Part shown: positions 24,254-63,713 of the stretch, piece by piece
Layout of the letters: the number at the start of each line of letters is the position of its first letter
Numbering within the stretch: the stretch's first letter is position 1
NCBI GenBank assembly: GCA_024690825.1
Contig: JAILOK010000097.1
Location: 1-64,000, forward strand
DNA length: 64,000 bases
Reading direction: 5' to 3'
Source: Lachnospiraceae bacterium
GTDB lineage: Bacteria; Bacillota; Clostridia; Lachnospirales; Lachnospiraceae
Made by a program: the position numbers and the translations under genes
Notes under the pieces: generated by a model
Database searches by the model: none
What the model saw: the letters and a program-made list of their open reading frames with translations, nothing else
Told to the model about the DNA's origin: nothing

Positions 24254-24330
24254 AAAGATGACAGAGGGACGGTTCTGCTGACAACCTTTTACCGAAAAGT
24301 TGTCAGCAGAACCGTCCCTCTGTCATCTTT
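24254..24330. repeat. REP-like palindromic pair (inverted) between convergent galE and blaI-like genes
   Basis: AAAGATGACAGAGGGACGGTTCTGCTGACAA (24254-24284) and its exact reverse complement (24300-24330). Confidence 0.95.
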
Positions 24331-24337
24331 GTCACTT

Positions 24338-52469: not shown

Positions 52470-52529
52470 GTGACAGAGGGACGGTCCTGCTGTCAACTTT
52501 TGTGACAGAGGGACGGTTCTGCTGACACA
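52470..52529 (+). repeat. two tandem direct REP-like copies
   Basis: GTGACAGAGGGACGGTCCTGCTGTCAAC then GTGACAGAGGGACGGTTCTGCTGACAC. Confidence 0.95.
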
Positions 52530-52560
52530 CATGTAAACAATATAGGAGGATAACGAAAAA

Positions 52561-61673: not shown

Positions 61674-62765
61674 ATGAAGGGTATCTCTTTTGAAAAAGCC
61701 CTTTGTTTTTCCGGGCTCATAACGGCTTTAGTCTTTATCCGGACCGTCTGTGTTTTTGCCGGGGGATCCGGTGTGCTTCTTACTGCCGGAGCCGCCACAA
61801 AGCTTGAGATGGGGACCTTTGACACCATCGCTTCAACCGAGGTCATGAGCCAGGCCCAGGCCGGTGCTTCCGCCGGCATAGATGAACAGGCCATCAGAGA
61901 AGGGCAGATCGAAGAGACCATAGCCGGCTACAAAAATCTGGGCATAGCCGTTGTTGAAAATCACTTAAATGTCAGGGAAGCTGCCAACGAGGATTCAAAT
62001 CTCGTCGGCAAGATGACGAGAAATGCGGGATGTGAGATCCTTTCCGTCGATGACGGATGGGCGCATATAAAATCCGGGAAGGTGGATGGTTATGTAAACC
62101 TTGAATATCTTCTTACGGGCGAAGAAGCAAAGCAGAGGGCAAGGCAGGTCATCACATTGATGGCAACCGTTACGACCACCACGCTTTTTGTCCGTGACCA
62201 GCCTACCACCGAATCTGCCGTTATCACCATGGTTCCCATGGACGAGGAACTTGAGGTTCTTTCCGGGGAAATCAATGATCCCTGGGTAAAGATCGCGATC
62301 GACGATGATGAAGGGTATGTGAGCACCGAATTCGTTACCCTGTCAGAGCAGCTCGACAAGGCCGTGACCATGACCGAGCTCCGCTACGGCATGGGTGTAT
62401 CCGATCTTCGCATCAATCTGGTCAATTACGCCAAGCAGTTTTTGGGCAACCGTTATGTATGGGGAGGAACTTCCCTTACAAAGGGCGCGGACTGCTCGGG
62501 CTATGTCATGCAGATATACAAAAAATACGGCATAGGGCTGCCGCGTACCTCCAGAGAGCAGGCGCGCTGCGGCACCAAGGTCGCTTCAGGCGATGCAAAG
62601 CCCGGAGATCTTTTCTTCTACGGCAAGGGCGGTGTTGTAAACCATGTCGCCATCTACATAGGCGGAGGCCAGATCATCCATGCATCAAACCCCCGAAGCG
62701 GCATCAAAATCTCAAATGCCTACTACCGTACACCCTACGCGATCCGCCGCGTGATCAAAGAGTGA
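61674..62765 (+). CDS. exported SH3b + NlpC/P60 cell wall hydrolase
   Basis: Two SH3-like domains (VVENHLNVREAANEDSNLVGKM; TTTLFVRDQPTTESAVITMV) and FLGNRYVWGGTSLTKGADCSGYVMQIYKKYGIGLPRTSREQ..DLFFYGKGGVVNHVAIYIGGGQIIHA. Confidence 0.95.
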   Translation: MKGISFEKALCFSGLITALVFIRTVCVFAGGSGVLLTAGAATKLEMGTFDTIASTEVMSQAQAGASAGIDEQAIREGQIEETIAGYKNLGIAVVENHLNVREAANEDSNLVGKMTRNAGCEILSVDDGWAHIKSGKVDGYVNLEYLLTGEEAKQRARQVITLMATVTTTTLFVRDQPTTESAVITMVPMDEELEVLSGEINDPWVKIAIDDDEGYVSTEFVTLSEQLDKAVTMTELRYGMGVSDLRINLVNYAKQFLGNRYVWGGTSLTKGADCSGYVMQIYKKYGIGLPRTSREQARCGTKVASGDAKPGDLFFYGKGGVVNHVAIYIGGGQIIHASNPRSGIKISNAYYRTPYAIRRVIKE

Positions 62766-62839
62766 CAGGGGGTGCTGAACAGGCAGTGCCTGTTCGTCTA
62801 GCACCGACCGGAGCGGAGCGGAGACCGGTTCTGCTGTCA
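62762..62839 (+). repeat. degenerate/split REP-like copy with internal hairpin insert
   Basis: GTGACAGG then GGTGCT-GAACAGGC-agt-GCCTGTTC-gtct-AGCACC hairpin, then ACCGGTTCTGCTGTCAT. Confidence 0.65.
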
Positions 62840-62855
62840 TCTTTTTGTTTTTCGT

Positions 62856-63165
62856 GTGTCAGAGGGACGGTTCTTCTGTCATTTTTTTGTTTTTCGGATG
62901 ATGCGCATATATTACCGTGCAGTTGTTCGGACGCTTTATTATCTAAGCTCATGATACAGTCTATGGCCCGTCACGCAACCGGGGCAACCCAACATCCGTG
63001 TTTGGCTCCGCTTCGCTCCGCATTTGCCCCTATTTGCGCATCCTTGCGCAAATTTGCTGCATACAGAACATTCGCTAAGATAATAACAGCATCCTCACAG
63101 GGCACGATAATATATGCGCATCATTCTGGTCCACATGTATGACAGCAGAACCGTCCCTCTGTCAA
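62856..63165. repeat. ~310-bp foldback (MITE-like) element capped by inverted REP-like repeats
   Basis: Ends GTGTCAGAGGGACGGTTCTTCTGTCAT (62856-62882) and TGACAGCAGAACCGTCCCTCTGTCAAC (inverted, 63140-63165). Internal arms ATGATGCGCATATATTA at 62899-62915 and its exact reverse complement at 63108-63124. Confidence 0.8.
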
Positions 63166-63215
63166 CTCCCCTGTCAACTTTGTCAACCGGGTCAACAATC
63201 GGATCCGTATCATGG

Positions 63216-63245
63216 TTGACGTAAGGCATGCGGATATGTTAGAAT
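63216..63245 (+). promoter_or_regulatory. candidate sigma-A promoter of rpsO
   Basis: TTGACG (63216-63221), 18-nt spacer, TAGAAT (63240-63245). Confidence 0.6.
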
Positions 63246-63339: not shown

Positions 63340-63606
63340 ATGATCACAAAAGAAAAGAAGACAGAGATTATCGAAAAGTATGCAAAGAAGCCCGGAGATA
63401 CCGGCTCGCCCGAGGTTCAGATCGCAATTCTCACAGAGCGCATCAGAGAGCTTACCGAGCACTTAAAGGAAAACAACAACGACCACCACTCAAGACGCGG
63501 ACTTTTGAAGATGGTCGGACAGCGCCGCGGACTTCTTGATTACTTAAAGAAGAAAGACATCGAGAGATACAGAAGCATAATCGAGAAACTCGGAATCAGG
63601 AAATAA
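63340..63606 (+). CDS. rpsO: 30S ribosomal protein S15
   Basis: [64 protein letters not shown]. Confidence 0.98.
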
Positions 63607-63616
63607 AGATTTATCC

Positions 63617-63643
63617 AAGGTGGAACATCATGCGTTCCACCTT
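63617..63643 (+). terminator. hairpin between rpsO and pnp
   Basis: AAGGTGGAAC atcatgc GTTCCACCTT. Confidence 0.7.
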
Positions 63644-63713
63644 GTTTAAGTAGATAACAGATTTTTTTAATGCCTCGTTGGAAGGCGGAAGAAGAGAAGG
63701 AAGGAAAAGAAAA

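Follow-up and report, generated by a model that had tools for sequence, protein, structure and literature searches.

What is the structured block that lies between a putative cell-wall hydrolase gene and rpsO in the 64,000 nt stretch of Lachnospiraceae DNA analysed here (hereafter the window), and is it a mobile unit, a regulator of rpsO or something else? Examination of the letters alone had suggested a MITE or REP-derived composite that no gene in the window explains, and which might influence rpsO-pnp expression. Our analysis indicates that the minus strand of the block instead carries a TwoAYGGAY RNA copy, extended by an outer stem of approximately 23 bp and set between two inward-facing REP repeats of a separate family.

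Structure of the foldback block

A near-continuous hairpin of ~230 nt occupies positions 62898–63124, with inverted REP-like repeats capping both sides (Table 1). The foldback seen in the sequence-only reading is real, with both pairing and folding lying far beyond chance: region 62840–63180 folds with −136.2 kcal/mol (z = −10.2), a value that no shuffled sequence equals, and the minus strand without the caps has a folding z of −7.2. Pairing of the inner arms was also correctly recognised, although the coordinate originally given for it is off by one.

Table 1. Features of the foldback block and its surroundings
Feature	Position	Strand	Basis or remarks
SH3/NlpC-P60 cell-wall hydrolase	61674..62765	+	NCBIfam NlpC/P60 matches, all under curated cut-offs
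Degenerate extra REP copy, 3 mismatches	62822..62839	+	inside 93 % direct repeat with 62868–62896
REP-like repeat GGGACGGTTCTTCTGTCA, then T-run	62857..62882	+	terminator-like on +
Outer stem 3′ arm, copy-specific	62898..62920	−	complementarity, own-partner pairing, compensatory changes
TwoAYGGAY RNA core (RF01731)	62922..63101	−	cmscan, 57.3 bits
Hairpin 2, GGGGCAA/TTGCCCC stem	62981..63030	−	ACA-CGGA-TGT loop (putative CsrA site); subtype-specific GGAGCGAAGCGGAGCC insertion
Hairpin 1, GCGCA-AGGA-TGCGC	63032..63053	−	loop GGA a putative CsrA site; perfect 9-bp inverted repeat; compensatory changes between copies
Outer stem 5′ arm, copy-specific, beyond Rfam model	63102..63124	−	96 % complementary to 62898–62920
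Inverted REP-like repeat GGGACGGTTCTGCTGTCA	63139..63164	−	
Probable rpsO promoter, TTGACG-N18-TAGAAT	63216..63245	+	outside element
rpsO (ribosomal protein S15)	63340..63606	+	TIGR00952, 134 bits
Pairing: caps	62857–62882 / 63139–63164	inverted	26 nt, 92 % complementary
Pairing: inner arms	62898–62920 / 63102–63124	inverted	23 nt, 96 % complementary
Pairing: third stem	62936–62953 / 63069–63086		paired segments
Pairing: perfect hairpin	63032–63040 / 63045–63053		9-bp inverted repeat

Identity of the core

It is near certain that the core is a TwoAYGGAY RNA. The minus strand matches Rfam family RF01731 above the gathering cut-off of 43 bits (E-value 3.8 × 10−8), with the alignment spanning the full covariance model (positions 1–168 of 168). 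Thus, what had been described as an unexplained foldback is indeed a foldback, but one whose core belongs to a known RNA family that the initial inspection overlooked. Beyond the full-length match, the window copy shares with this family two apical GGA loops, a Clostridial host and the lack of a fixed gene partner. It differs in that hairpin 2 holds a further GGAGCGAAGCGGAGCC hairpin, which is characteristic of its subtype, in that an outer stem continues beyond the Rfam model, and in the loop of hairpin 1, which reads AAGGAU and so deviates from AYGGAY at the Y, whilst the ACGGAU of hairpin 2 fits. Loops of sister copies read AYGGAY or AGGGAU, and the window copy was counted as carrying the two AYGGAY terminal loops that define RF01731. 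It is therefore an additional member of a known RNA family, found in an unusual nested setting.

A copy-specific outer stem

Of the 62 copies whose flanks could be used, nearly all have a stem that runs 20–40 bp past the Rfam model. The outer arms differ from copy to copy yet pair mutually within each one: mean pairing energies are −41 kcal/mol with the arm's own partner, −20 with partners from the same genome and −15 with partners from other genomes, and the own partner is the best in 53 of the 62 copies. Compensatory changes, whose lack between the arms had been named as part of a refuting outcome, are present at 10 pairs of the whole structure among four sister copies of subtype A; columns 15/233, for example, are occupied by U-A, G-C or C-G. 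Sister copies display cores that are 97–98 % identical, with outer arms of just 80–87 % identity. In genome G408, copies L164 and L177 have cores that are 97 % identical and outer arms of about 80 % identity that are still almost fully paired. With regard to the strand on which the pairing is maintained, G-U and A-C mismatches number 107 and 78 in the outer arms, a weak surplus of G-U for the RNA strand, and 52 and 51 in the core basal stem, where there is no surplus, as compared with 55 and 30 in terminators of the same group, which served as calibration. These counts give no clear sign that selection on the long stem acts at the level of RNA rather than of a DNA palindrome.

The caps belong to a separate repeat family

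The caps are short, palindromic, intergenic and high in copy number, frequently occurring as inverted pairs, and in these respects correspond to REP/BIME repeats. Their motif, GGGACGGTTCTNNTGTC, is found in 57 exact copies in the genome, with none for the reversed control; when as many as 3 mismatches are allowed, the window contains 7 matches, where 0.1 would be expected. They differ from REP/BIME repeats in that they are distinct from the RNA core they surround, and in that the draft genome encodes no RAYT above cut-off. The trans-acting RAYT that the sequence-only reading proposed to look for was not found in this assembly: the genome's only Y1 transposase, considered as a candidate, was rejected as it scores as an IS200/IS605 TnpA (136 bits) and reaches 28.9 bits with the REP_Tyr_transpos model against a cut-off of 80. 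Literature searches on the REP sequence, and on RAYTs in Firmicutes, returned nothing relevant.

The same earlier inspection likened the complete 310-bp stretch, with its REP caps, to one composite transposable unit. Consistent with this, inward-facing inverted caps occur in the window, at copies L003 and L009 and around a relic (L232), and a different foldback (L233) likewise lies between REPs. However, the window copy, L003 and L009 are the only 3 of the genome's 13 RNA copies with REP matches nearby; no match is present in the examined flanks of the remaining ten, two of which start at contig ends. REPs are moreover far more numerous than the RNA and often form simple pairs. In the close relative G405, which has an identical S15 protein, the interval from the P60 stop codon to the rpsO promoter holds an inverted REP pair of similar sequence but no RNA element. 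The RNA is therefore nested between REPs rather than forming one MITE with them; a single REP–RNA–REP transposon was rejected on these grounds and is scarcely credible. From the individual cases examined, REPs and foldbacks repeatedly share sites, yet they are separable repeats.

Several further REP arrangements were observed. In L232 (G000:C128:25450-26150, positions 235–475) an inverted REP pair surrounds a TwoAYGGAY relic that is not detected by Rfam, in which the arms are kept and both GGA hairpins are deleted. In L233 (G000:C128:36400-37200, positions 240–525) such a pair encloses a different foldback of ~210 bp that has no Rfam match. Within the window, a simple inverted pair at 24259–24331 makes a hairpin of ~31 bp that has T-runs on either strand and may be a bidirectional terminator, and two REPs stand in tandem at 52470–52530. 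At 62800–62842, CCGACCGGAGCGGAGCGGAGACCGGTTCT lies beside the degenerate REP, within a 62-bp stretch that is 95 % identical to the flank of L003.

Copies in the genome and its relatives

The proposal of a multi-copy, intergenic element is borne out for the RNA, with 13 copies of RF01731 in the host genome (a 2.95-Mb draft, 99 % complete). These form two sequence subtypes, with L005, L008, L010, L011, L013 and the window copy in A and the other seven in B. Contig ends coincide exactly with the start of two copies, as is expected where a repeat breaks the assembly. Inside the host's genus, copy number ranges from 0 to 13 per genome, and copies have been gained and lost between close relatives. 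Sites without the RNA, which the sequence-only reading proposed to look for, were indeed found: the rpsO site lacks it in both G405 and G393, G405 has no copy at the L001 site, and the L006 site is apparently empty in both relatives. Conversely, the L002 site is also occupied in G393, by a copy (L174) in the same place, and the L007 site is occupied there by a copy in opposite orientation. Relative to neighbouring genes, based on simple ORF calls, 22 copies are in sense with both, 19 are antisense to both, 11 lie between convergent genes and 5 between divergent ones; this lack of orientation bias argues against a role in one particular mRNA. No plasmid homologues of the region were found.

Such a distribution would suit a mobile, REP- or MITE-like DNA element, that is, a giant palindrome spreading between intergenic sites for which CsrA binding is incidental or self-serving. 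The variable copy number, the sites without the element at rpsO, L001 and probably L006 in G405, the near-equal counts of sense and antisense copies, the inward REP pairs at three copies together with the internally deleted relic, and the near strand symmetry of the stem mismatches all agree with it. As with MITEs, the copies are small, multiple, non-coding foldbacks. Against this, no target-site duplication is seen, the flanks of the relatives' element-less sites being too diverged to place junctions; no associated or related transposase was found, and no RAYT above cut-off; and the outer arms are copy-specific, so that there is no common terminal inverted repeat of the kind that MITEs share with a transposon. 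The contrast between near-identical cores and diverged arms in sister copies leaves no clean transposition unit, G000 and G393 each carry a copy at the L002 site, and a mobile element does not predict the co-occurrence with CsrA described below. We therefore regard mobility as the sole explanation as rather unlikely, and the earlier reading of a single MITE or REP-derived composite is not upheld: caps and core are separable, and neither a target-site duplication nor a RAYT was found.

Relation to rpsO and the flanking genes

An orthologue of the NlpC-P60 gene adjoins rpsO in relatives, and the named rpsO matches nearest to that of the window are almost all from Lachnospiraceae. Just 3′ of rpsO, at 63596–63669, there is a weak ROSE_2 match (23.8 bits versus a cut-off of 65). 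The block's position after the hydrolase stop codon and ahead of the rpsO promoter, and the terminator-like REP and T-run on the plus strand, might indicate a cis-acting role for rpsO-pnp or for the preceding gene, as terminator, insulator or leader. Such a role appears improbable, as the RNA is antisense to both flanking genes, about 90 bp separate the element from the rpsO promoter, and other copies adjoin different genes. Furthermore, the element is absent from the nearest relatives, with loci L183 and L184 retaining a similar rpsO promoter and leader without it. The effect on rpsO-pnp that had been suggested is accordingly unlikely, since the element includes neither the rpsO promoter nor its leader, the RNA is read from the opposite strand and the two nearest relatives do without it.

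Association with CsrA

The host genome has one csrA (TIGR00202, above cut-off, with PDB relatives), which adjoins a FliW-like gene and is located among flagellar genes. The antagonist of CsrA known from Firmicutes is a protein, FliW, and CsrA there usually targets translation of flagellin (hag/fliC). In 2014, Gardner and Eldai proposed from motif matches that TwoAYGGAY binds CsrA (PMC4333381), a proposal for which no validation was found in the literature searched. Several features of the RNA agree with it. Each apical loop of the window copy leaves its GGA unpaired, a trait of CsrA sites and of CsrA-sequestering sRNAs, and the GGA of hairpin 1 has an unpaired probability of 1.0. Subtype-B copies carry GUACA(U/G)GGAUGUAC, which is near to the CsrA SELEX consensus RUACARGGAUGU (PMC4347634). 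On the RNA strand, every one of the 70 cores contains A.GGA; on the opposite strand it is mostly missing. RF01731 additionally belongs to Rfam clan CL00106, the same clan that was returned for CsrB upon scanning E. coli csrB.

Across Clostridia, TwoAYGGAY occurs almost only in CsrA-bearing genomes. Amongst 393 Clostridia genomes, CsrA is present in 33 of 35 RF01731 carriers and 102 of 358 non-carriers (p = 8 × 10−15), and amongst 346 genomes of the bacterium's own family in 51 of 54 and 122 of 292, respectively (p = 3 × 10−14). The pattern holds for genera, at 25/25 with the RNA and 57/195 without in Clostridia, and 47/49 and 95/231 within the family, with all of these comparisons treating genomes or genera as independent and leaving CsrA and motility unseparated. 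In a post hoc hand count of family genomes, the RNA is also commoner where there are multiple CsrA genes (12/24 versus 39/149, p = 0.03). Over half of the genomes that have CsrA do not carry the RNA. In Clostridia CsrA goes together with flagella, and the association of the RNA could thus be with motility rather than with CsrA itself. Three genomes with RF01731 and no detected CsrA (G155, G279 and G720) have genus mates that possess it, making assembly gaps possible; two others (G571 and G690) have no such mates. G690 is a single-contig genome of 3.5 Mb with one RF01731 copy in which CsrA was not detected, an observation that counts against a CsrA model.

The best explanation for these data is, in our estimation, a dispersed, CsrB-like RNA that binds CsrA, to which we assign a probability of about 0.6. 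The two apical GGA hairpins of a long, rigid stem would bind a CsrA dimer, and the dispersed copies, if transcribed, would jointly titrate CsrA in the manner of CsrB or RsmZ; no promoter-like site for the RNA was found on the minus strand at the window copy. Titration of CsrA is the best-supported function, albeit a putative one. The resemblance to CsrB/CsrC and RsmX/Y/Z lies in the loop GGAs, the clan shared with CsrB and the co-occurrence with CsrA. The differences are in architecture, with a single long rod that bears two main sites as opposed to many short hairpins, and in the existence of many dispersed copies, which are known here from sequence alone.

Wider implications

A more speculative extension, offered tentatively, is that TwoAYGGAY is a dispersing repeat with a CsrA-binding RNA as its cargo, such that lineages adjust their free CsrA through gain and loss of copies, from 0 to 13 inside one genus, whilst the private outer stem of each evolves rapidly yet stays paired. 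CsrA-sequestering RNAs had been identified only in Gammaproteobacteria (PMC4333381). The near-exclusive co-occurrence with csrA at the class, family and genus levels provides new and independent support for the 2014 proposal (PMC4333381). If this proves true, many motile gut Clostridia would possess an RNA brake on CsrA that is present in multiple copies and changes rapidly.
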